From Bryobacteraceae bacterium (GTDB lineage Bacteria > Acidobacteriota > Terriglobia > Bryobacterales > Bryobacteraceae): a stretch of 18,533 nucleotides of DNA. The stretch spans positions 1-18,533 of the forward strand of contig JARKOC010000368.1 in the NCBI GenBank assembly GCA_029975915.1. The letters run 5' to 3'. Below, in pieces: positions 4,338 through 17,667 of this stretch. The position numbers and the translations under genes are program-made. Each line of letters opens with the position of its first letter. Positions within the stretch are counted from its first letter, which is position 1. The notes beneath the pieces are model-generated. The model was not told the origin of the DNA, made no database searches, and saw only the letters and a program-made list of their open reading frames with translations.

Positions 4338-4910
4338 TCACGTCACCGCGTACCGACCGGTCCCGTTGAGCGCTGAGTGGAGCGTTTGTCGGCTGACCCC
4401 AAGGTCTCTGGCCACGCGAGCTTTTGGCACTCCGGCCTCGACCTGCTTCCTGGCTGCTGCGATCTTCTCAGCATTGAGCTTGGGAACCTTGGCGTACTTG
4501 CCTGCCGCCTTGGCGAGCGCGATCCCGTCGAGCTGCCGCTCGCGGATGGACTCTCGCTCCAGCTCGGCGAATGCTGCGAAGACGGTGATTATCGCCCGGC
4601 CCTCCTTGGTCGAGACGTTGAGCATGGGGGAGTCGATGAACTCCAGCGCCACCCCCTTGCTGGCCAGTTCGTCGACGATGCGCAGCAGATCCCGGGTGTC
4701 GCGCGCCAGCCGGTCAATCGACTTGGTCCTGATGGTGTCACCGGCCTGCGCAAAATCCATCAGGGTCCGAAGCTTGGCTCGATCGGCGAGCGTCTTCCCC
4801 GAGACCTTCTCTTCGACCAAGACGTCGACGCCGGCCAGAGAATCGCGTTGCCGATCCAGATTCTGGTCCTTCGAGCTGACCCGCGCGTAGCCGTATATCC
4901 GCCCACTCAC
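4338..4910 (-). CDS. Serine recombinase (resolvase/invertase family)
   Basis: A 190-aa small serine recombinase. It cuts and rejoins DNA at paired crossover sites through a phosphoserine intermediate and usually resolves transposon or plasmid dimers or inverts DNA. The catalytic signature YARVSSKDQNLDRQ lies at residues 8-21, with Ser12 the nucleophile and Arg10 beside it. The conserved SIDRLARDTRDLL follows near 64-76, then the long E helix (AFAELERESIRERQLDGI). The C-terminal 30 residues (GVPKARVARDLGVSRQTLHSAL) form the helix-turn-helix of the resolvase DNA-binding domain, so the protein is full length. The start is GTG at 4910, preceded by GGGAGG about 9 bases upstream. No transposase is adjacent; it may belong to the mobile element whose mobilization genes are at the 5' edge. 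Confidence 0.95.
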   Translation of the reverse strand: MSGRIYGYARVSSKDQNLDRQRDSLAGVDVLVEEKVSGKTLADRAKLRTLMDFAQAGDTIRTKSIDRLARDTRDLLRIVDELASKGVALEFIDSPMLNVSTKEGRAIITVFAAFAELERESIRERQLDGIALAKAAGKYAKVPKLNAEKIAAARKQVEAGVPKARVARDLGVSRQTLHSALNGTGRYAVT

Positions 4911-5333: not shown

Positions 5334-6902
5334 ATGTTCGAGCCGCCGAGATTCGGGCTGTCCTCGAACGAACCCGTGCCTGGGCGAGTCTTCTGGACGC
5401 TTGGTGACGGCCCAACGCAGGAGGACTTGCGGGTCTCGCGTCGATGGTTGGAAGCGGAACTGAAGGCGCAGGTTCTCCTATCTGACGAGATCCTAGCCTC
5501 AGCTTCGTACTTCTACGAGTCACGGTTGACGCAGGACTTGGTTATGGGTCCAGCGCGCGGACTCGTTCGAGATGGTGAGCTTCGCTTGTTCGTCGGCAGC
5601 GATCTCCAGAACTTCGAACACCACGCGAGCGAAAAAGCAAAGAAGAGTCCGCTAGAAATGTTGGAGTATGGCCAACCTGCAATGCTGGCCAGACTATCGC
5701 GCCAGCTGGACCGACTCACCGAACCGATGTTTCGCCGCGCGGTTGATATCAGCGGGGCGATTATCGAGCTGTGGCTCGCAGACCTGGTCGACAACCGACC
5801 CGGCACGCTTGGCGGAATCGCGTGCGAGATTGACGGAGTTGCTGAAGGTACAACTGCGACATTGCTCGCCCAGATCGCGGCTGAACGAAAGGGAGACTTC
5901 GTCTGGCCGTTTGTGCTTCCGAGATTGCAGGGCAGTGGATTCCCAAGACATCGCTTGGGTGAAGTGAAGCATCGATTGAACCAGCTGTACGCACGAGCGA
6001 GCGCGGAGGCTGTGGATGCCTTCATCGACCTAGCGGACCCCGTTTCAAGTGACTCGAAAGTGACGCATGCGAGCGCACAAGATCCGTTCCTGCTCCTGAA
6101 GACTTTACGTGCGCTAGGACTACTCACAGATTTCTTGAACCTCAGTGTCGATCAAGTAAGAGACCTAAAGCGAACTCAGGGCTGGACCGCTTTCCGACCG
6201 CTGTACGTAGCTCTCGTAGAAGCAGCGGTCAGTCTGAGCGGGGATGTGACCATTGCATTGCCACTGCTACAGCATGCCCACAACTCGGGACTCACGCGTG
6301 ATGAGTTCACCACCGCCTTGGCGCGCGTCCTACATGATGAACTTGACGGGTGGACCCTCGAGAGATGCGCAACAATGAGCGAGAAGTTTTTGACACTCAC
6401 GGACGTATTTGGCGATAACCCAATTGCTCTACTCGAGCATAGCCTCAGAGAGGACCTACCAATAATGACCGGACGACGCGTTGCGAGCACGCCGCTTGCC
6501 TTCATTGTTCACGGGCATGACGCCGCTCTTCGGCTAGACCTGAAGAACTACATACAGAACACGCTCGGCTGGCAGGAGCCAGTCGTCCTTGCAGAGAAGC
6601 GCAGCGGTGGCCGCACGATAATCGAGAAGTTCGAGGAGAACGCGGAGAAGGCCGACTACGCCTTTATCCTTCTCTCCCCCGACGACCTCACGAAAGACTC
6701 AGAAGCACGTGCTCGGCAGAACGTGATCTTTGAACTTGGCTTCTTCGTAGGATACTTCGGTCGAAAGAGCGGACAGGTGTTGGTGCTGCGGAAAGGTGAT
6801 GTCCGACTCCCAGGCGACTTAGATGGAGTCATCTACATCGATGTCTCAGCGGGCATCGCGGCGGCCGGCGAAGAAATCCGACGAGAACTGAACGTCTCGT
6901 GA
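5334..6902 (+). CDS. TIR-domain effector-like protein (CAP12/Pycsar-type TIR, C-terminal)
   Basis: A 522-aa protein with two parts. Residues about 387-515 match the TIR-like fold found in CBASS Cap12 and Pycsar effectors (predicted nucleotide-binding, PF10137): FIVHGHD (390-396), GGRTIIEKFEE (425-435) and RARQNVIFELGFFVGYFGR (459-477), then VLVLRKGDVRLPGDLDGVIYI. Glu431 in RTIIEKFE is the candidate catalytic residue. Active relatives degrade NAD+ when infection is sensed. The first ~385 residues are mainly helical, with no transmembrane segment and no STING or known sensor motif that I can recognise. No cyclase gene is adjacent, so this is not a canonical CBASS or Pycsar pair; it may act alone, with the N-terminal part as sensor. 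ATG 5334 follows a G-rich run (GGGGGG) 11 bases upstream. Codon use is less GC-rich than the P450. Confidence 0.88.
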   Translation: MFEPPRFGLSSNEPVPGRVFWTLGDGPTQEDLRVSRRWLEAELKAQVLLSDEILASASYFYESRLTQDLVMGPARGLVRDGELRLFVGSDLQNFEHHASEKAKKSPLEMLEYGQPAMLARLSRQLDRLTEPMFRRAVDISGAIIELWLADLVDNRPGTLGGIACEIDGVAEGTTATLLAQIAAERKGDFVWPFVLPRLQGSGFPRHRLGEVKHRLNQLYARASAEAVDAFIDLADPVSSDSKVTHASAQDPFLLLKTLRALGLLTDFLNLSVDQVRDLKRTQGWTAFRPLYVALVEAAVSLSGDVTIALPLLQHAHNSGLTRDEFTTALARVLHDELDGWTLERCATMSEKFLTLTDVFGDNPIALLEHSLREDLPIMTGRRVASTPLAFIVHGHDAALRLDLKNYIQNTLGWQEPVVLAEKRSGGRTIIEKFEENAEKADYAFILLSPDDLTKDSEARARQNVIFELGFFVGYFGRKSGQVLVLRKGDVRLPGDLDGVIYIDVSAGIAAAGEEIRRELNVS

Positions 6903-6970: not shown

Positions 6971-7014
6971 CATAATGTGGTCTGCATGAGTCATAATGCG
7001 TGGTCTGCATGAGT
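6971..7014. repeat. Imperfect tandem duplication, 21 and 23 bases
   Basis: Two adjacent copies share CATAATG followed by TGGTCTGCATGAGT. Copy one is 6971-6991 and copy two 6992-7014, differing only by a CG inserted after the shared CATAATG. The copies abut with no spacer. They lie between the TIR gene and the DUF4145 gene and could be a duplicated protein-binding site or simple slippage. Confidence 0.75.
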
Positions 7015-7220
7015 ACCGTTACGCCTCACGGACGGGAACTTGGAGCCCAGCCTCCGCCTTGGTGCCCACTCGTGTAACAGCCCCCGAGCATGCCGGCCGC
7101 AGGTTCCCCGCTCGGCCCGGGGCCGGACACATCCGACTCTGGCACTGTGCGCGAGGGTTGCCTTGCGGCTGGGCTTTCGCGCACCCGCCTTCAATTGTCT
7201 CCGGGCGCGCGATCTTGGCC

Positions 7221-7241
7221 GCCGCCCGAAATCCGGGCGGC
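7221..7241. repeat. GC-rich perfect inverted repeat
   Basis: GCCGCCCG (7221-7228) and CGGGCGGC (7234-7241) form a perfect 8-base-pair stem with the loop AAATC. A second short dyad (GGCGCC ... GGCGCC) follows directly. No T-tract follows on either strand, so rho-independent termination is unlikely; it could end transcription weakly from the TIR side or be a protein site. Confidence 0.5.
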
Positions 7242-7421
7242 GCCTCCGGCGCCCCCCCGATCGGTGCAGATGAGCGCTCGCTGACGCGGCGCGTCCGCCA
7301 CTTCACTCCGTGCCGCGAACAGCCACCAACTGGTCGCGGTCGCTCTCACGCGTACGCTTCCGTCTCGTGCGCAGCAAGTCCCGGACGGGTGGACTCACCC
7401 GAGACCGTCGGCGCTGTGCGC

Positions 7422-7434
7422 CATAGTGCTGTCA
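7422..7434 (+). promoter_or_regulatory. Candidate leaderless promoter (-10) of the DUF4145 gene
   Basis: CATAGTG lies 7-13 bases before ATG 7434 with no Shine-Dalgarno sequence between. In actinobacteria a TANNNT-like -10 box at this distance is typical of leaderless transcripts beginning at the start codon. No clear -35 box is seen. This also supports choosing 7434 rather than an upstream in-frame start. Confidence 0.3.
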
Positions 7435-8069
7435 TGGCGACGACGACTTGCGGTTGGTGCAACCGCGACGTACACATGACCCAGCTTTCGCGACACCCCT
7501 CTGTGCAGAACGACATGTTCACTGGGTATGTCAGTGACGCTGCCTACAAGTGCGACAACTGTGGCCGGTTCAGCGTAGTCACGTGGCGAACTACTTACGA
7601 CCCATCGGGCAGTTATCGTTCGGGCGAGCCGGAGGACTACGACCGCAGCGTCCAGTGGAACCCGCCTGCCACCAACCAACCTGGGTATCCCGACGTGCCG
7701 TCGCACATCGCTTCCGCCGCTCGCGAGGCATGGCTGTGCTTTGCGCACAACGCCTACATCGCCACGTGCAGCGTGGCGCGTTCCGTGATCGAATCGTCAG
7801 CGAAAGCCCACGGCGTCACCGTGTACGGAATCCATGCCAAGATCACCGAACTCTCAGACAAGCACCTCATTTGGGGGACCCTTGTTGACTCAGCCCACAT
7901 AGTGCGGCAGTTCGGGAACGACGCCGCTCACGGGGACCTCGCCGAGCCCGCCACGAACGACGAGGCTTCCGACGTCCTCACCATCATGGACGAACTGCTA
8001 CACCAGTTGTTCACTACGCCGGCGCGCGCCGCGAAGCTCAAGGCCGCCAGGGCCGCGCGAAAGGACTGA
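7434..8069 (+). CDS. DUF4145 domain protein with N-terminal zinc ribbon
   Basis: A 211-aa protein. I chose ATG 7434 because family similarity begins there with MATTTCGWC, and the in-frame extension upstream is not protein-like. Cys6-x2-Cys9 and Cys40-x2-Cys43 form a zinc ribbon typical of the family. The DUF4145 domain follows at about residues 80-185, with the helix AAREAWLCFAHNAYIATCSVARSVIE and the conserved RQFGNDAAHG near the end, a HEPN-like helical arrangement. The C-terminus is a basic tail (KLKAARAARKD). DUF4145 occurs alone or fused to restriction and other defence nucleases; its activity is not established. It follows the TIR gene after a long gap and precedes the HNH-like gene on the same strand. 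Confidence 0.85.
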   Translation: MATTTCGWCNRDVHMTQLSRHPSVQNDMFTGYVSDAAYKCDNCGRFSVVTWRTTYDPSGSYRSGEPEDYDRSVQWNPPATNQPGYPDVPSHIASAAREAWLCFAHNAYIATCSVARSVIESSAKAHGVTVYGIHAKITELSDKHLIWGTLVDSAHIVRQFGNDAAHGDLAEPATNDEASDVLTIMDELLHQLFTTPARAAKLKAARAARKD

Positions 8070-10799: not shown

Positions 10800-11236
10800 C
10801 CCAAGAGTGTCGACCCTCCCGTGCCGGGCGACAATCCGTTGGGCCGCGGCAGAGCGCACCACTCGGCAACGGACGGCGGCTGTCGGCCCGCCCACCGCCG
10901 TATGGAACACCTCGAACGAAAAGCCCCGGGCAGGGAGTGTCGCATGCCAGACAGCCTCTCGGGGTGAACGGGCAACACGGCGAACACCTCAGCCACATCC
11001 AAGACTGCGCGCGCGGACGCTGGTGCTGAGAGTCGGATTCGCAGATTCCCATGGCGGGCGTCGACGCCGTGGGGCGTGAGTTCGCCCACATGCCGAGAAG
11101 CGTACGTCCGGCCCCCGCCCATGAGCTGAACTAGACCCCCGCCGCCAATCCCCGTGTGATATCATCCCCTAAGCCTCGTGAGTTGCCTTGCCGCAGTCAC
11201 GAAGCGCCATTTCGGCACTATTGGGGGGACAATAGG
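10800..11236. other. Divergent intergenic region, P450 / radical SAM operon
   Basis: About 440 bases with short overlapping frames on both strands that have no ribosome binding sites. Composition is GC-rich near the P450 and drops near the peptide operon. It includes the 8-base palindrome TGATATCA at 11157-11164 and, just before the operon, TGGGGGGACA (11222-11231), which recurs upstream of the precursor gene. The promoter of the radical SAM operon should be here, but I cannot pick -10/-35 boxes with confidence. No second precursor-like ORF was found here. Confidence 0.4.
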
Positions 11237-12688
11237 ATGACAACGCAAGTCAATGCCATGGGCCGTACCGACTCCTATGCCCTTCGTACCTCCACCCCCC
11301 ATAGCACTCCAACAAAGTTGCGTCCTGGAGCCTACAACCTACAAAGCCGGCTGCCCGGCGGGCAGTCGCTTCTCGTTAACTGCATTACCCGGGCTATCGA
11401 TTTAGTCCCGACATCGCTCGCAGAGTATCTGACGGAAGTCGGAGAGATTCCAGAAGATTTCGTCGATCCACCACAGGCGCTTCTCGACTATCTCGCCCTT
11501 CGGGGCTATGTCACGAACTTGTCGCCCGAAGAGGAGCGAACCGCGGTTCGTGACCTCGCCACTCGTATAGACGCCGCTCGCGCTCAAGAGCGAGCCACCC
11601 CCACTTTCACCTTCGTCCTAACCTATGGATGCAACCTCGCATGCACCTACTGCTTCCAGTCAGGTATTGAAGGTCGCGCGCGACCGTCGATCATGTCGCC
11701 AGATCTAGTCGTCCGCTACTTCCGGTACATAGACACCTTCCCGCATAACCAATCGAAGCAAAATATCGAACTCTTCGGTGGTGAACCTCTTATGAAGAGC
11801 ACGAGGAAGACGGTGGAAACGATTGTCAAGTTGGGCGTCGATCGGGGCTACACCTTCACCGCCACAACTAACGGTGTTCAGCTTGATCACTTTCGCGATC
11901 TACTCTCTCCCACCAAGATCGCCCGCCTACTGGTCACGCTCGACGGTCCACGGGAGATCCACGACGCGCGCAGGATTAACACATCAGGCCACGGAACCTT
12001 CGCGAGGATTGTATCGAACATAAAGGCCGCCACAGACGAGGGTGTCATGGTTAGCATCCGCACCAACGTCGATCGCGATAACCTTGCACATCTCCCCGCG
12101 TTCATAGACTCCTTGGACGAAGTCGGACTCCTCGGACGGAGAAACGTCACGGTATTCGCAGCGCCAGTCAAGCCAAGCTTGGGGAGCCTAGCTACCTCTG
12201 AACTCCTCAGCCACTCCGAACTCATAGAATTCCTCTCTCGCGATAGACGTCTACTCGCACTCCGGGATGAGAAGAACCAGGGCTCAGTCAACTCCTGGGA
12301 CTTCTCTTGGGGCGAGCAATCTAGATACTGCGGTGCCGTTTCCAGCTCCCTACTTCTTGATCCCGAAGGGCTCGTATTCACCTGCAACGAGGTGGTAGGG
12401 CAACCAGAACACGCGGTTGGTCAATTCAGGGACGATACGGTCGAGTTCTTTGCGGACAAGTACTCACGCTGGCGCAAGCGTTCCGTGGTGGCCCTTGAAC
12501 AGTGCCTAGGCTGCCAAGTCGCGCTGGTATGCGCCGGGGGCTGCGCCATCCGCGGTTGGCATGAGGGCTCTGCAGGCGCTGTCGATTGCGGAGGCTTCAA
12601 AGAGGCCTTTCTGTCCAGCCTGCGACGCCAGTTCCTCACCCAGAACCCTCAGCAAGAGGAGCCCGATGGCCCTCCAACTTCCCTCTGA
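11237..12688 (+). CDS. Radical SAM/SPASM peptide maturase
   Basis: A 483-aa enzyme that would modify a ribosomal peptide by SAM-derived radical chemistry. Residues 28-95 (KLRPGAYNLQSRL, then VNCITRAIDLVP) resemble the N-terminal region, often an RRE-like peptide-binding part, of sacti-/ranthipeptide and related maturases. The radical SAM core carries Cys132-x3-Cys136-x2-Cys139 and GGEP at 181-184. The C-terminal SPASM domain is complete: Cys365-x12-Gly378-x4-Cys383, Cys423-x2-Cys426-x5-Cys432-x3-Cys436 and Cys451, binding two auxiliary Fe-S clusters. Start ATG 11237 follows GGGGGGACAATAGG; the longer frame to 11156 has no ribosome binding site. Its 3' end overlaps the protease gene by 23 bases. 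Likely products are thioether (Cys to alpha or beta carbon) or C-C cross-links, but this cannot be decided from sequence. Confidence 0.95.
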   Translation: MTTQVNAMGRTDSYALRTSTPHSTPTKLRPGAYNLQSRLPGGQSLLVNCITRAIDLVPTSLAEYLTEVGEIPEDFVDPPQALLDYLALRGYVTNLSPEEERTAVRDLATRIDAARAQERATPTFTFVLTYGCNLACTYCFQSGIEGRARPSIMSPDLVVRYFRYIDTFPHNQSKQNIELFGGEPLMKSTRKTVETIVKLGVDRGYTFTATTNGVQLDHFRDLLSPTKIARLLVTLDGPREIHDARRINTSGHGTFARIVSNIKAATDEGVMVSIRTNVDRDNLAHLPAFIDSLDEVGLLGRRNVTVFAAPVKPSLGSLATSELLSHSELIEFLSRDRRLLALRDEKNQGSVNSWDFSWGEQSRYCGAVSSSLLLDPEGLVFTCNEVVGQPEHAVGQFRDDTVEFFADKYSRWRKRSVVALEQCLGCQVALVCAGGCAIRGWHEGSAGAVDCGGFKEAFLSSLRRQFLTQNPQQEEPDGPPTSL

Positions 12689-13928
12689 CTTTGTGTTGGG
12701 ACAGCTCCGCCCCGATGGTAGAGCCGTCGCTTTCGCGAATGGGCATTCCTACTTGGTTGAGGAGCCCACGCTCTCACTCTTGAGGACTGTTGAGTCCAAG
12801 GGGAGCGTAGATCTTGGAACCCTTGCGGAGGTTCTCGGAATCGCAGAAGAGGGCGGACGGCGGTCCGAACTTCAGGCTTTTATTGACGACGTCTTGCTGA
12901 AGGAGGGGCTCTTGATTGACACTGAGGCTCCATCCAAGGGTGCGGCGTCCTTTGTCGACCCTCTCGCACTCGGCGTTAAGGTTCGTCTATTGGATGAAGT
13001 TCGAATGATGCGACTCGCTCAGCTCATCGCTCCTATTGCGTCTCAGAGGAGTGTCCTGGTTCTTTTTGTTGTTGCTCTCACAGCTTCAGTTCTTGCCGTT
13101 TTCGAGGCGTGGCAGGCGGGGCTCCTCACAGACGGGTTGCGAATACTCGGAGCCGTAGCAGTGGTTGCTCCTGGAATCACTCTTCTGGCTCTCCTGTCTT
13201 TGGTCATTCATGAGATTGGTCACGCTGCAGCCGCGTTTCATGAAGGTGGTCGTGTCGACGGGGCTGGCGTTGGTATCTACTTCGGGTCGATGGTAGCTTA
13301 TGTTGGATTGGACTCGGTGCATCGCCTTCGGCGACGAAGCCGTCTTTCTGTAGACTGTGCGGGCATCGCCTTCCAGGGGCTTTGCCTCGTTCCTGTCGTT
13401 GTGGCGGCCACTATCTGGCCCTCGGACTATTTGATGGTCATTGCGTTCAGTCTCTCCACCTCGATCCTTGCCAACCTCAGTCCTCTAACGCGACTCGACG
13501 GCTACTGGATCATCTGTGATCTTTTCGAAGCTCAGCAACTTCACGCTAAGGCGCTGTTGTTTGTTCGGCCAAAGCGCGGTTGGCGGACGCTGCCCACTTC
13601 CGAGCGATGGGCGGCATTGACGCTGATCGGTTCGTTCTTGATGTACATCGCCACGGGCGCCATTCTGGTGGCACTAATCGGGTTCCTAATTCCCATGAGC
13701 TTCCCCCGATTCGTGCAGAATGAGGTGGCTCAACTCTTCTCCGCGGTTTCATCAGGCGCCCTCGAAGCCGTGATAGGGTCGGCATGGCGCCTCCTCTTTG
13801 GCGCAGTCATGCCGGCCGTTGGCTGGGGATTCGCACTTATACAGACGGGGAAGTTGTTGTATCGGCGTATTCCCCTCACGCGTTCGATCGAAGGGCGAGG
13901 GGCGAGTCCACATGTCCAGCGCACTTAG
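12666..13928 (+). CDS. M50-like intramembrane zinc metalloprotease of a peptide locus
   Basis: A 420-aa integral membrane protein. The start is ATG 12666, inside the end of the maturase gene, with AGAGGAG (12653-12659) 6 bases upstream; the longer frame simply runs through the maturase. Residues 1-90 form a soluble domain (HSYLVEEPTLSLLRTVE, then SELQAFIDDVLLKEGLL) that looks like a PqqD/RRE-type winged helix, although that is inference. Several membrane helices follow (about 128-147, 160-182, 235-275, 317-345, 368-395). The zinc site His182-Glu183-Ile-Gly-His186 lies in a helix, and NLSPLTRLDGYW (270-281) supplies the second M50 motif with Asp278 as third ligand. The protease probably removes the leader, releases the peptide at the membrane, or gives self-protection, as proposed for YydH-type proteins. 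Confidence 0.9.
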   Translation: MALQLPSDFVLGQLRPDGRAVAFANGHSYLVEEPTLSLLRTVESKGSVDLGTLAEVLGIAEEGGRRSELQAFIDDVLLKEGLLIDTEAPSKGAASFVDPLALGVKVRLLDEVRMMRLAQLIAPIASQRSVLVLFVVALTASVLAVFEAWQAGLLTDGLRILGAVAVVAPGITLLALLSLVIHEIGHAAAAFHEGGRVDGAGVGIYFGSMVAYVGLDSVHRLRRRSRLSVDCAGIAFQGLCLVPVVVAATIWPSDYLMVIAFSLSTSILANLSPLTRLDGYWIICDLFEAQQLHAKALLFVRPKRGWRTLPTSERWAALTLIGSFLMYIATGAILVALIGFLIPMSFPRFVQNEVAQLFSAVSSGALEAVIGSAWRLLFGAVMPAVGWGFALIQTGKLLYRRIPLTRSIEGRGASPHVQRT

Positions 13929-14811
13929 ACTTGCGTTCAAGCCAGTCGGACTTATCGCCGGGCTGCCTGCGAATCACGGTTCTCTGAAGACGAAGTTCCT
14001 CTCATCCGTCCACGGAGGAGCGCCAGTCCTTGAGGGCTTCGACGCAATGGGCGGCGATGTCATACCCTCATTTGAGCGTGATACGACCTATGATTTCGCC
14101 ATTGCGGCCTTGCTCAGGCGCGCAGGTATCAGTGGTGAAGATTCTCTTCGCATTCTCACGGCTGGTTCCCTCTTGCGAGTAGGCGTGGGATTGTTGAGGG
14201 CGGGCCGTGCCAGGAAGGGCTGCCTTGGGGTGTCGGAGGCTGCTTGCCGACTAGCTTTGGATCTGTTCGGGTCCAGGATCGATCCGACTTCGGAGTGGGA
14301 GCAACTCGTCGCCCTGCTGAAGTTTCTCGCGAGTCAGACAGTTGATCCTGAGCCGTGGACGTGCGAACACTGGCAATTGAGTGTCACGGCCAGCCCTGAG
14401 CGACTTATCCCGATGCTCTCTCTGGTGGGTGGGGGTCACAATGTGAACGCATCCTTTGCAGAGCGCGAAGTAATTCAGGCCTTGGCGAATGGATATTTGG
14501 CCCGAAACGAGCTCATGCGTTGGGAGCGGGGCATTTTGGAGGGGAGGCCGACCCGACTGCGCGGCGCTGTTGCTGAGGAGTTCCGGGGAGAAACGCCGAG
14601 TCTGAATCAGGTGGGCGTGCGAATCGTCGAGTCTGGCGACTGGGTTGCGCTGGTGGATGATCTGGATAGGTCTGTGGTTGATTTGCAGATCGTGCGAGCC
14701 GGGACGCATATCTGGCTGTTGAAGGCGATTCGACCCTCAATCTGCGCTGACTACGAGGCGGTAGCGAAGCGAGCCAGAGTTGTGAGGATGTCGATTACTG
14801 GTGACGTCTAA
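13912..14811 (+). CDS. Unrecognised protein of the peptide locus, 299 aa
   Basis: Starts at ATG 13912, overlapping the end of the protease gene by 17 bases, with GAGGGG about 8 bases upstream; the frame extends to 13798 but only through protease coding sequence. The protein appears soluble, with no signal peptide and no clear membrane helix. N-terminus: SSALRLAFKPVGLIAGLPANHGSL, followed by an alternating segment (KTKFLSSVHGGAPVLEGFDAMGGDV). The middle is helical with four cysteines (in KGCLGV, AACRLAL, WTCEHW and SICADY, the last near the C-terminus). The end (GVRIVESGDWVALVDDLDRSVVDLQIVR) is beta-rich. No catalytic motif or family was recognised. Co-translation with the maturase and protease implies a part in making, recognising, or resisting the peptide; an immunity or scaffold role is possible. 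Confidence 0.82.
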   Translation: MSSALRLAFKPVGLIAGLPANHGSLKTKFLSSVHGGAPVLEGFDAMGGDVIPSFERDTTYDFAIAALLRRAGISGEDSLRILTAGSLLRVGVGLLRAGRARKGCLGVSEAACRLALDLFGSRIDPTSEWEQLVALLKFLASQTVDPEPWTCEHWQLSVTASPERLIPMLSLVGGGHNVNASFAEREVIQALANGYLARNELMRWERGILEGRPTRLRGAVAEEFRGETPSLNQVGVRIVESGDWVALVDDLDRSVVDLQIVRAGTHIWLLKAIRPSICADYEAVAKRARVVRMSITGDV

Positions 14812-14827
14812 ACAACCTGGTGGGTGA

Positions 14828-15664
14828 TCAAGGCAAAGGTGTCTCTCGGCACGAAGTGCCGCTCGGGGCGCATTGCATGGCGGGGAGGCCAATTGTCGGG
14901 CGAGCATCCGTGGGGGTCAGATGTGACGAAATGTGCTTGATCGTCTCGGATCCGCAAATATCTGCGGGCTTTCCTTCTGTTGATGCACAAATCTGCGCGA
15001 TCTGAACGTTTGCAGACCCGAGGATCATTTTGGCTACCGGAGACGAGGCGCCTGAAAGCTCAGCGGCTATATCGCTGGTTGACTTTCCCTCCATTTGTGA
15101 GCTTGCATCGAAAAGTGTGCCAATTCGGTAGCCGGTGCCCCAAGAGACCCAAGGTATTGAACCATCTGGATCGAGTCGATCCATGAGTTCTCTGTCGTCG
15201 CTCGTCAGGGCGTCGAGCGGTCGCTTTGCCGCATCTTCCAACTCCACGGCTTCGAACGTGACGTGGTCGCTGGTGAATGTTGCGTTCCTGAAACTGACGG
15301 TGGGAAGTGACTGCCAAGGCATCGAGCCGGGAATGTCAATGCTGTGCAAGCCAGCGAAGGTGCCAAACTGGCTCAGTGCGATCACCAGCGACCACCGTTC
15401 CATCGCGCAGTAGTGGCAGTATTCAGCCCCCACATACAAGACACGAGGCTTCTTCGCTTGGCGGAGGGGGTCCTCACCGAGGACGTGCGACGCGGCTGTG
15501 ACGGCATCGATATTGAGAGCGCCCAGCGCGACTCCGTCTCGCAGTGATATGTCGACGACGGGTGCGCTAATGGCGCGATCCCCGGTGTCAAGCGGAGCAT
15601 TGCACCCGGCCATCAAGACGGATGCTGCGATGGCGAGCATGATCCGTCTAGCTGATATTTCCAT
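14828..15664 (-). CDS. DUF929 thioredoxin-like lipoprotein
   Basis: A 278-aa secreted lipoprotein. After ARR it has a hydrophobic stretch (IMLAIAASVLMAG) ending in the lipobox LMAGC, so Cys21 would be lipidated and the protein anchored outside the membrane. The DUF929 core (PF06053) follows: VLYVGAEYCHYCAMERWSL at 75-93 with the Cys83-His-Tyr-Cys86 redox pair, then ALSQFGTF and SLPTVSFRNATFTSDHVTFEAVE, which match the family well. Family members are presumed thiol-disulfide oxidoreductases. I chose ATG 15664; GTG 15673 is possible and neither has a strong ribosome binding site, so translation may be weak. It lies 68 bp behind the Cys-rich precursor on the same strand, suggesting disulfide formation or reduction on the exported peptide. 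It ends 16 bp from the convergent 299-aa gene. Confidence 0.9.
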   Translation of the reverse strand: MEISARRIMLAIAASVLMAGCNAPLDTGDRAISAPVVDISLRDGVALGALNIDAVTAASHVLGEDPLRQAKKPRVLYVGAEYCHYCAMERWSLVIALSQFGTFAGLHSIDIPGSMPWQSLPTVSFRNATFTSDHVTFEAVELEDAAKRPLDALTSDDRELMDRLDPDGSIPWVSWGTGYRIGTLFDASSQMEGKSTSDIAAELSGASSPVAKMILGSANVQIAQICASTEGKPADICGSETIKHISSHLTPTDARPTIGLPAMQCAPSGTSCRETPLP

Positions 15665-15687
15665 GAGATTCACGAGCTGGTAGTGAT

Positions 15688-15724
15688 GGTTTCGGGGAGG
15701 CGCTTTCGACCCCTCCCCGAAACC
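15688..15724. terminator. 13-bp perfect inverted repeat between precursor and lipoprotein genes
   Basis: GGTTTCGGGGAGG (15688-15700) and CCTCCCCGAAACC (15712-15724) form a perfect 13-base-pair stem with an 11-base loop. It begins 8 bases after the precursor stop codon on the minus strand. No T-run follows, so it is more likely a partial terminator or 3' stabilising hairpin that lets the precursor transcript outnumber that of the lipoprotein. This arrangement is common behind RiPP precursor genes. Confidence 0.75.
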
Positions 15725-15732
15725 GGACTCTA

Positions 15733-15873
15733 CTACTTGCAGCTCCCGTAGAACAAGGTGCTGCAGCAGTCCTTGCCACAGGTTCCCATTTCAAGTCGGG
15801 ACTCGAGGCGCTCCACCGACTTCACCGAGAACTGCTTGACGTCATTGAGCGGAACGATCTTGATCTTGTCCAT
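15733..15873 (-). CDS. Putative Cys-rich RiPP precursor peptide, 46 aa
   Basis: A small gene below usual length cut-offs. ATG 15873 is preceded by AGAAGGAG (15883-15890) with a 9-base spacer, the best ribosome binding site in the region. It ends in two consecutive TAG codons. Residues 1-30 form a charged leader (MDKIKIVPLNDVKQFSVKSV, then ERLESRLEMG); the C-terminal 16 residues TCGKDCCSTLFYGSCK form the likely core, with Cys32, Cys36, Cys37 and Cys45. The leader/core composition, the hairpin behind it, and the neighbouring radical SAM/SPASM enzyme, M50 protease and thioredoxin-like lipoprotein all fit a RiPP substrate. Its four cysteines could be thioether donors, disulfides, or both. Leader cleavage near Met29-Gly30 is a guess. 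It does not match a precursor family I know. Confidence 0.82.
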   Translation of the reverse strand: MDKIKIVPLNDVKQFSVKSVERLESRLEMGTCGKDCCSTLFYGSCK

Positions 15874-15890: not shown

Positions 15891-16104
15891 CTTGCGACAG
15901 AGGTCCAGCGAGTCTGTCCCCCCATTGGATGCTAGCGGGTCGACGGTTGCTTCGCTCGGTGTCTCGCTAGAGTCGGACCGCGTCGATGCCCACCATGAGG
16001 CCAGCATTGGGAAATGGGGGCGGATGCGACCTTTGACCCACGGTCGCGTGAGCAGAATCGTTGAATCCTGAATTGTGCGGTGACGTGCGCAGGCGATAGC
16101 CTAG

Positions 16105-16277: not shown

Positions 16278-17667
16278 TCAGGTGCTGTCCAGGATGGTGA
16301 GGGCGGTCAGCGCGCCGACGAGGAGGCCCACCCACGGGTGGTGGCCGGCGTAGCGGAGCCGGACCTGTCGGCTGCCCCGGACCAGGGCGGCGGGGATCGT
16401 GAAGAGCCGGTAGCGGAGCCGTTTCGGTTCCCAGCGGCGGGCTGGCTGATCGTGGAGGGCGAGGAGTTGCATCCACGCGGTGAGCTCGCAGGCGAGGGCG
16501 ACGATGGCGCACCAGATCTGGTTTTGGGCGAACGAGTACAGGGGCAGGTTCGTCAGCCCGGTGTCCTTGGCGAGCCGGATCCGGTCCTCACACCTGGCCC
16601 GCCTGCGGTGACGGAGTTCGAGGTCGGCCAGTTGGCCGCGGGTGGTGTTGGTGGCGAACGCGGTGATGCGGTGGCCGTCGACATCGGTGATGGTCAACTG
16701 GGCGCCAGGGTGCGGTCGTTCTTTGCGGATGATGACCCGCATCCCGGCAGGCCAGCCCTTCAGGTCGAGCAGGCCGGTGAGTTCGGCGACCCAGGCCCCC
16801 TCACGAGGCTGGCGGTCGGCGTCGTGGGCAGCGGTCCACACTCGGTCGGGGATCTTCTCGATCAGGGTGGCGGCGTCGGTGGGGAGGGTGAACCCGACCG
16901 AGTACTGCACCCGTTGGCCGGTGAGCCAGTTGAGCAGGTCGTGGCTGTAGCCGGCACCATCCACCCTGACCAACACGCGTTTCCCGGGCCTGTGGTTGGG
17001 CAGTCCCGGCAGTTGTCGGAACGCTTGCCGGAGGACGGTGATGTGGTCGGTGGCCTTGTTGGAGCCGGCGTTGCCGGGTCGGAGCAGGATCGCCAACGGT
17101 TCCCCGGTGCCCTCTTGGCCGTGGTCGACGAACGCGCACAAAGGGTGGAACCCGTACCCCTTCTTGAACGTCGGTTTCGCGTGTTCCTTGTCCGAGTGCG
17201 CTGTCACCAAGGTGGCGTCGACGTCGACGACCAGCGGCTGCTCCACGCTGGCGGCGTGGTGGGGGGCTTGCTCACCGGCCAGCAACCAGGCGCGGGCCCG
17301 GGCTTCAGCGCGGGCGTCGTTGATGGCTTTCAACGCGGTCGGTGCGTCGGGCGGCGAGCAGGCTGATCAGCCGGGAGATGGTCGGGTCCGAGGCCACCTT
17401 CCCGTACACGTCCGGCTCGCTGCGGACCAGGGCGACGTCGGCGAGGCAGTCGCCTCCCAGGGCGAGAGTGATGGCCAGGTCGGACAGGATCTTGCCCGGG
17501 TCGTGGGTCGCGAACGGTTTGCGCCACGGCGCCAACGCCGTCGACAACCCGTGGGTGAGGCCGGTCACCACGGCCGTCTTCGTGAGCAGCATCCCGCCGG
17601 CCTGACCCACCACGCGGGTGGCTCCGGCGTCGTGGCGGGGTTGGGGATACGCGGCGGTACGCTTCAC
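16278..17667 (-). pseudogene. IS1380-family transposase, frameshifted
   Basis: Two overlapping minus-strand frames make one transposase of about 462 aa. The N-terminal part begins at GTG 17667 (VKRTAAYPQPRHDAG), with GAAGGAAG about 10 bases upstream, and runs to the frame break. The C-terminal part continues KAINDARAEARARAWLLAGEQ to 16278. Removing one C from the CCC at 17349-17351 joins the frames as LLAADAPTALKAINDAR, the sequence expected of the family, so the break is a single-base insertion. DDE-type features are VVDVDATLV, VLVRVDGAGYSHDLL and RARCEDRIRLAKDTGL (family glutamate in CEDRI). The family is not known to use programmed frameshifting, so the copy is probably dead, or the base is a sequencing error. 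Confidence 0.9.

Follow-up and report, generated by a model that had tools for sequence, protein, structure and literature searches.

A predicted radical SAM-modified peptide locus with a daptide-like intramembrane protease and leader in a contig labelled Bryobacteraceae

Introduction

Among described ribosomally synthesized and post-translationally modified peptides (RiPPs), the locus reported here was compared with daptides, ranthipeptides, sactipeptides and epipeptides. Daptides have a site-2 protease fused to a RiPP recognition element (RRE), and their leader, which RRE domains read and which the leader of this locus resembles, carries the motif ELExMEAP. Enzymes of the radical S-adenosylmethionine (SAM)/SPASM type also make cofactors, such as pyrroloquinoline quinone (PQQ) and mycofactocin. 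The C-terminal Thr of daptide precursors is invariant, according to a passage of PMC10036551. Here we analyze 18,533 nucleotides of contig JARKOC010000368.1 (assembly GCA_029975915.1, labelled Bryobacteraceae), hereafter the window, in which positions 11237-15873 hold five open reading frames (ORFs): a putative radical SAM/SPASM maturase, an M50 protease, a 299-amino-acid (aa) protein called p299, a thioredoxin-like DUF929 lipoprotein and a 46-aa Cys-rich peptide.

The locus resembles each of these systems in part. As in daptides, the leader has E-x-L-E-x-x-x-x just before the core, the M50 protease finds its best NCBIfam match in daptide_HExxH (NF041824), and the leader would be removed within the membrane; in contrast to daptides, the precursor ends in Lys46 and has Arg for Met at the -4 equivalent, the main enzyme is a radical SAM/SPASM protein, and the protease scores 81.7 bits against a cut-off of 300. 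With ranthipeptides and sactipeptides (CteB, PapB, SkfB) it shares a CteB-related SPASM maturase and a short Cys-containing precursor, but it differs from them in its intramembrane M50 leader protease and its LN plus ExLExRxE leader, and it falls far under the PapB, Clo7bot and geopeptide cut-offs. Epipeptide loci (yydFGHIJ or epeXEPAB) likewise have a radical SAM enzyme and an M50 protease in one operon; the differences are the Cys-rich core, an M50 score of 34.4 bits against 225 for the epipeptide (YydF/EpeX) protease model NF058609, and the lack of an ATP-binding cassette (ABC) pair among the window ORFs scanned. An earlier note on this DNA could name no matching system, which is true in part: the protease and the leader are daptide-like. 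No description of radical SAM plus M50 loci with this leader was found in the titles and abstract beginnings of the literature searched, and an earlier description is possible.

Results and discussion

The locus and its proposed product

Judged from its sequence, the locus is a real, uncharacterised RiPP locus that combines radical SAM modification with a daptide-like intramembrane protease and leader; the Lys C-terminus and the protease score set it apart from daptides, and by score it belongs neither to TIGR04463 nor to PapB. The gene set, the catalytic motifs and the relatedness of the precursor to its counterparts in other radical SAM plus M50 loci are read from the sequence itself. We consider it likely that the product is a ribosomal peptide modified by the radical SAM enzyme and trimmed by the M50 protease. 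The features are:

11237-12688, plus strand: radical SAM/SPASM peptide maturase, 483 aa (PF04055, CX3CX2C, SPASM Cys)
12666-13928, plus strand: intramembrane M50 metalloprotease, 420 aa (HEIGH at residues 182-186, LDG with Asp278)
13912-14811, plus strand: p299, 299-aa protein, family unassigned (ORF only)
14828-15673, minus strand: DUF929 thioredoxin-like lipoprotein (PF06053, lipobox LMAGC by eye, CHYC)
15688-15724, no strand given: hairpin between the precursor and DUF929 genes (perfect 13-bp stem, without a T run)
15733-15873, minus strand: very probable RiPP precursor peptide, 46 aa, 4 Cys (leader profiles)
15787-15813, minus strand: proposed leader recognition motif ERLESRLEM, residues 21-29 (alignments; gapless match by eye)
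15736-15786, minus strand: predicted core GTCGKDCCSTLFYGSCK, residues 30-46 (probable cut after Met29)

All five ORFs lie at the coordinates of the earlier note, whose gene list (a SPASM maturase, an M50 protease and p299 facing a Cys-rich peptide and a DUF929 lipoprotein) is confirmed by ORFs, Pfam and motifs. On the plus strand, maturase and M50 genes overlap by 23 bp and M50 and p299 genes by 17 bp; on the minus strand, the 46-aa ORF and the DUF929 gene are 59 bp apart and converge with p299.

In the proposed mechanism, the precursor leader (PLN ... VERLESRLEM) would recruit the enzymes. Using SAM and Fe-S clusters, the SPASM maturase would cross-link the Cys-containing C-terminal part, most likely through Cys thioethers of the ranthipeptide or sactipeptide kind. 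The M50 protease, recruited by the leader much as in daptides, would then cut the leader off, probably after Met29, so that GTCGKDCCSTLFYGSCK would be released at the membrane. The hairpin that follows the precursor gene may keep the precursor transcript in excess over that of DUF929. Outside the membrane, the DUF929 lipoprotein would work on the released peptide, either in disulfide handling or in self-protection, and p299 could be a member-specific accessory or immunity protein.

Precursor peptide and leader

The 46-aa ORF is very probably a true RiPP precursor, because a leader profile trained without the window ranks it first. This profile, built from 22 peptides of seven loci, placed it at the top of 247 window ORFs of 20-120 aa (E 0.001, next best 3.8), and a second one from 20 peptides of six loci, again excluding the window, did the same (E 0.001, next 3.6). 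When each training locus was left out in turn, a proposed precursor came first in six of six cases. The training precursors were chosen by eye, and the set of 22 held two near-identical Rhodococcus peptides. With 46 non-redundant peptides, 30 of them library peptides found by means of an alignment that included the window peptide, the latter once more took first place (E 0.0047, next 5.3) and scored above all 2000 of its own shuffles; the double-length ORF P0003 and the window's own variant P0002 were left out of this profile. The claim in the earlier note that this ORF is the precursor of a RiPP locus is therefore carried by homologous loci and the leader profile, not by Cys content alone.

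Small ORFs of related loci have in common a leader with K-x-[LIM]-N near the start and approximately [VI]-E-x-[LM]-x-x-R-[DE]-E-[FYM] directly ahead of the first Cys. The window leader reads PLN ... VERLESRLEMGTC, and by eye its motif aligns without gaps with VEELENRDEM (L178) and with the daptide-like VEELEAMDAP (L180). Variant P0002, 98% identical to the window peptide, keeps L-E-x-R-x-E. Cleavage is placed after Met29 because the leader aligns without gaps with daptide leaders, whose numbering ends at the Pro of ELExMEAP, and would leave a 17-residue core with an unmodified mass of 1771.704, against a monoisotopic mass of 5184.561 for the whole precursor. Cys residues stand at positions 32, 36, 37 and 45 of the precursor, followed by the C-terminal Lys46. 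The locus has, in sum, a gene-encoded precursor with a conserved leader and a variable core.

Neither Pfam nor NCBIfam models matched the 46-aa peptide, and ten small ORFs of related loci, mostly proposed precursors, matched no family over its cut-off. When 5.77 billion proteins were searched with a profile and 787 candidates were scored, there were 32 matches at E <=1, of 36-106 aa and without a Pfam domain, which carry the name hypothetical protein or none; one is the window's own variant. The leader signature can find precursors that are too short or divergent for ordinary annotation, and the locus provides an exact predicted core peptide, with its masses, to look for.

Maturase

The maturase matches Radical_SAM (PF04055, E 6.6e-17) and has the features required of a radical SAM/SPASM enzyme: an intact CX3CX2C at residues 132-139 and, by eye, seven SPASM Cys (C365-x17-C383 ... 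C423-x2-C426-x5-C432-x3-C436-x14-C451). The best curated family is TIGR04463 (rSAM_vs_C_rich) at 154.5 bits, under its cut-off of 525, and the PapB ranthipeptide maturase model NF047865 gives 116.4 bits against 340; none of the 25 best of 74 NCBIfam matches reaches its curated cut-off. The nearest solved structure is PDB 5wgg (profile E 2.8e-37), to which the maturase is related over nearly its full length and which is CteB, a thioether-forming enzyme (name as given in a passage of PMC10352776). As this nearest structure is CteB, the maturase likely installs Cys thioethers, by analogy.

M50 protease

Judged by its motifs, the protease is a site-2 protease, with HExxH and a distal Asp in the membrane core. 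Its Peptidase_M50 score (PF02163, E 9.6e-6, 25.5 bits) is just under the cut-off of 27.2, none of its NCBIfam matches is at the curated cut-off, and HExxH and Asp278 are invariant across nine radical SAM-linked M50 proteases. The fold matches SpoIVFB and an RseP orthologue; against profiles of solved structures, only MJ0392 (E 0.013) and RseP (E 0.71) were found. An N-terminal accessory domain (about residues 22-89) is common to the M50 proteases of other radical SAM loci and is predicted as two strands and three helices, with a block predicted local distance difference test (pLDDT) of 53-69. Among M50 proteases without a radical SAM partner, profiles link this domain to those of L186 and L183 only. 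Foldseek alone, in the search for an RRE in the protease, gave no match below E 0.001.

Related loci

An alignment of the maturase was used to scan 84,980 species genomes, and the best 80 loci among the matches listed were taken. An M50 profile found M50 genes in nine of the 80 loci, with the window's own DNA counted among the nine, and also beside radical SAM genes in three plasmid loci. After copies were merged (L014/L003, L002/L017, window/L009) and seven later loci added, 17 radical SAM plus M50 loci were inspected, including the window. Such pairs occur in records titled Rhodococcus, Clostridium, Herbinix, Ruminococcus, Epulonipiscium, Paenibacillus and Muribaculaceae, and short ORFs that contain Cys and begin with the common leader (K-x-L-N ... 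E-x-L-E-x-R-x-E) are present in 11 of the 16 other loci. The gene order in Rhodococcus L003 and L014 (radical SAM, M50, 281-aa protein) resembles that of the window, with the precursor gene between the radical SAM and M50 genes. In Ruminococcus L038 (6423-9110), the M50 gene is preceded by a tandem array of 14 precursor ORFs that have one type of leader and differ in their cores.

A later test applied the unchanged profile to 16 further loci: in five of seven radical SAM plus M50 loci, one to several precursors score E 1.6e-7 or better, and none of nine M50 loci without a radical SAM gene reaches E 0.05. All seven are from the order to which training locus L016 belongs, so they bear on whether leader and gene set go together more than on how widely this holds; one of them, L179, is L130, seen earlier as a shorter stretch without the precursor. 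Two of the nine loci without a radical SAM gene are instructive. In L180, peptides of a daptide-like kind contain VEELEAMDAPGW (E 0.25 and 0.36). In L186 (4619-6025), the 56-aa ORF after the M50 gene lacks Cys and has EELEERLEFG (E 0.054), a leader very like that of the window. These few cases suggest that the kind of leader tracks the M50 protease and that a Cys-containing core tracks the radical SAM enzyme.

Protease matches were counted in several draws, each of which includes its own seed genome: 56 of 396 Actinomycetota genomes at 1e-10, 6 of 299 in the phylum of the Ruminococcus locus at 1e-10, 3 of 247 in the order of the Muribaculaceae locus at 1e-20 and 16 of 198 in that of the Paenibacillus locus at 1e-20. 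For the 30 actinomycetote matches turned into loci, with flanks of about 1.5 kb or less, a radical SAM ORF was present only near the seed. The locus appears to belong to a sparse, uncharacterised family that is also found in bacteria of other phyla.

This sparse occurrence bears on whether the peptide might be a metal-binding or redox product akin to a cofactor, with DUF929 keeping its thiols reduced or loading it, instead of an antimicrobial. The C-x3-CC spacing could bind metal, PQQ and mycofactocin are precedents for cofactors made by radical SAM/SPASM enzymes, and the ORFs scanned held no recognisable immunity gene or ABC exporter; the rarity of the gene pair among Actinomycetota, where it is present only in the seed of 30 M50 matches with short flanks, and the tandem arrays with varied cores, which look like competition peptides, argue the other way, and we regard a cofactor-like role as decidedly improbable.

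More broadly, the radical SAM plus M50 loci with LN...ExLExRxE leaders may form one unnamed RiPP class in Bacillota, Bacteroidota and Actinomycetota, in which a common leader code couples SPASM chemistry to a daptide-like intramembrane protease and to which the window would add a dedicated extracytoplasmic CHYC thioredoxin-like lipoprotein and a peptide with both thioether and disulfide links. We put this forward tentatively and think it more doubtful than not; in the Bacteroidota members the motif is visible only by eye, the leader profile having missed them. The leader signature links radical SAM-associated Cys-rich peptides to a daptide-type protease and, if the proposal is true, a single leader type can, by way of one kind of membrane protease, serve modification chemistries that are unrelated, and the window holds a RiPP with its own extracytoplasmic thioredoxin-like partner.

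Several observations weigh against a radical SAM-modified, M50-trimmed peptide. The window peptide scores 10.8-13.1 bits and is a weak, divergent member. Among 71 control radical SAM loci without M50, the ten best top hits lie at E 0.0075-0.036, the best about sevenfold worse than the window, so that the margin of the window precursor is modest; six of these hits (L020, L021, L023, L028, L053, L054) look like precursors of sister families with an S-L-[NT] start, and perhaps are. Five of the 16 other loci (L002, L006, L011, L174, L176) gave no leader-profile match at a plausible precursor, and the near copies L174 and L176 showed no precursor in 9 kb. The N-terminal domain of the M50 protease is tied neither to that of the maturase (hhalign probability 2%) nor to most M50 proteases without radical SAM (E 0.9 or worse for L181, L182, L184, L185 and L188; no line for the daptide-like L180 and for L187), for which reason an RRE in this domain stays putative. 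A Pfam scan of 18 window ORFs, the other window ORFs being unscanned, recognised no exporter. On the other side, L006 and L011 have Cys-rich ORFs of 47 and 64 aa directly after the radical SAM gene, with ELEEHLET and QLEERLET by eye. Homologous loci in many genomes devoid of a Cys-rich small ORF, which the earlier note had named as the finding that would tell against a RiPP locus, are thus not what was seen: 11 of 16 share the leader, and two of the other five have such an ORF.

Other loci met in these scans differ in content. L002 (4938-10580, on a Rhodococcus qingshengii plasmid) joins the radical SAM and M50 genes with an ATP-grasp-like gene (by eye) and a 48-aa ORF with a different leader, and is possibly a hybrid modification system. 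The sister radical SAM loci L012, L020, L021 and L030 have 36-39-aa peptides of the form S-[LI]-N ... LW ... CC beside a 350-360-aa membrane protein, with a BlaI-like regulator in three of the four (by eye), and their peptides are possibly another unnamed family. In L099 and L100, M50 genes adjoin radical SAM genes with weak scores.

DUF929 lipoprotein, p299 and hairpin

The DUF929 lipoprotein is over its family cut-off (PF06053, E 4.3e-14, 53.1 bits against 24.6). PF06053 occurs in 19 of 396 Actinomycetota genomes, at 22 loci with varied upstream ORFs (by eye). On a Cutibacterium modestum plasmid (L135, 5463-6660), a DUF929 relative (32.7%) directly follows a 124-aa secreted-looking, Cys-containing protein. 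DUF929 was rejected as a marker of such loci: among 19 radical SAM plus M50 records (3.0-18.5 kb long, near-identical pairs included), only the window has it, and elsewhere its neighbours are unrelated. A role as a partner acting on an exported thiol peptide fits, as a conjecture.

These features bear on an alternative in which the radical SAM enzyme performs another modification (epimerisation, or a C-C or ether cross-link) and the four Cys are joined in disulfides once the peptide has been released, aided by DUF929, as in a disulfide-bonded bacteriocin. DUF929 is placed in the thioredoxin-like clan in a passage of PMC3091736; the lipoprotein has a lipobox and is encoded on the same strand downstream of the precursor gene; its motif is CHYC, against CP[FY]C in the 20 parsed of 22 Actinomycetota loci (L154 and L157 unparsed); the Cutibacterium arrangement is comparable; and M50 proteases also serve epipeptides, the products of a radical SAM epimerase. 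Yet the maturase is nearest to CteB and not to an epimerase, the M50 score is far from the epipeptide protease cut-off, and the presence of DUF929 in only one of 19 records shows that the core system needs no DUF929. We judge this alternative unlikely and retain thioether formation followed by M50 cleavage.

Co-occurrence of p299 with the maturase, M50 and DUF929, which the earlier note had proposed as a search, failed to appear: p299 was present in one of 58 related genomes, and neither p299 nor, by profile search, DUF929 was found in any of the 18 other radical SAM plus M50 records scanned. Both are therefore member-specific, and the disulfide role is conjectural. No Pfam, NCBIfam or PADLOC family matched p299 over its cut-off (DoxX_3 14.5 bits against 25), and 7998 scored candidates held no relative beyond near-identical copies. 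Comparison with the third protein of the Rhodococcus loci (281 aa) and a 283-aa protein of L002 gave BLASTP E 2.1 or worse, with an hhalign probability of 0.6% for the former. A MAFFT alignment of p299 was driven by gaps and was set aside, and its single-sequence AlphaFold2 model (pLDDT 34.7) was not usable. An accessory or immunity role for p299 may be suggested.

The 62-nt stretch with the hairpin folds at -32.6 kcal/mol (z -4.9; none of 200 shuffles as stable). It might act as an attenuator or stabiliser that keeps the precursor transcript in excess.

Upstream decamer and transcription units

A decamer precedes both transcription units:

11222-11231, plus strand: decamer TGGGGGGACA, first copy, 5 bp upstream of the maturase start
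15915-15924, minus strand: decamer TGGGGGGACA, second copy, 41 bp upstream of the precursor start

The window thus has two copies where 0.07 would be expected, and one of 200 shuffles had two; this is post hoc and weak. A looser dodecamer version has two matches, a number reached by eight of 200 shuffles. The decamer may mark joint control of the two units, weak and post hoc as this sign is. It has some bearing on whether the five genes form one system at all, or whether the plus-strand radical SAM, M50 and p299 genes act on something else and the minus-strand pair is a separate small-lipoprotein unit. Two separate systems would suit the converging transcription units and the distribution of DUF929, whose neighbours elsewhere are unrelated genes and which the other radical SAM plus M50 records lack; the first rank of the 46-aa ORF among 247 for precursors of such loci and, weakly, the shared decamer speak for a single system, and we find separate units very improbable indeed.

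Flanking genes and host

GC content is 0.55-0.58 in the five locus genes, 0.705 in the adjoining P450 gene and 0.687 in the IS1380 transposase gene. The argument that the earlier note drew from this shows a contrast between locus and P450 but not its direction, as the host is doubtful. A 12.4-kb part of the window recurs in another assembly, a metagenome-assembled genome labelled Spirochaetia, as the 12,362-base contig L009 (99.25% identical), which is taken to belong to genome G001. Other unmasked stretches sampled from G001 have a locus-like GC of 0.55-0.62. In a plasmid collection, the sole near DNA matches, to parts of the insertion sequence and P450, are actinobacterial. Mis-binning of the locus DNA in one host assignment is possible.

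Contig L009 ends inside a serine recombinase stretch on one side and inside the IS1380 gene on the other. The serine recombinase/resolvase gene lies at 4338-4910 on the minus strand (PF00239, E 5.9e-36). The IS1380 transposase ORF (16278-17333, minus strand) covers profile positions 106-418 of 419 and looks N-terminally incomplete, since the match starts at position 106. A 522-aa protein (5334-6902, plus strand) has a C-terminal CAP12/Pycsar-type TIR domain (PF10137, E 7.7e-31; PADLOC PDC-S35, E 2.1e-42) and is likely, from these matches, an anti-phage effector. Its gene adjoins that of a 357-aa DUF4145 protein (6996-8069, plus strand) with a weak PADLOC match to PD-T7-4 (E 1.8e-4).

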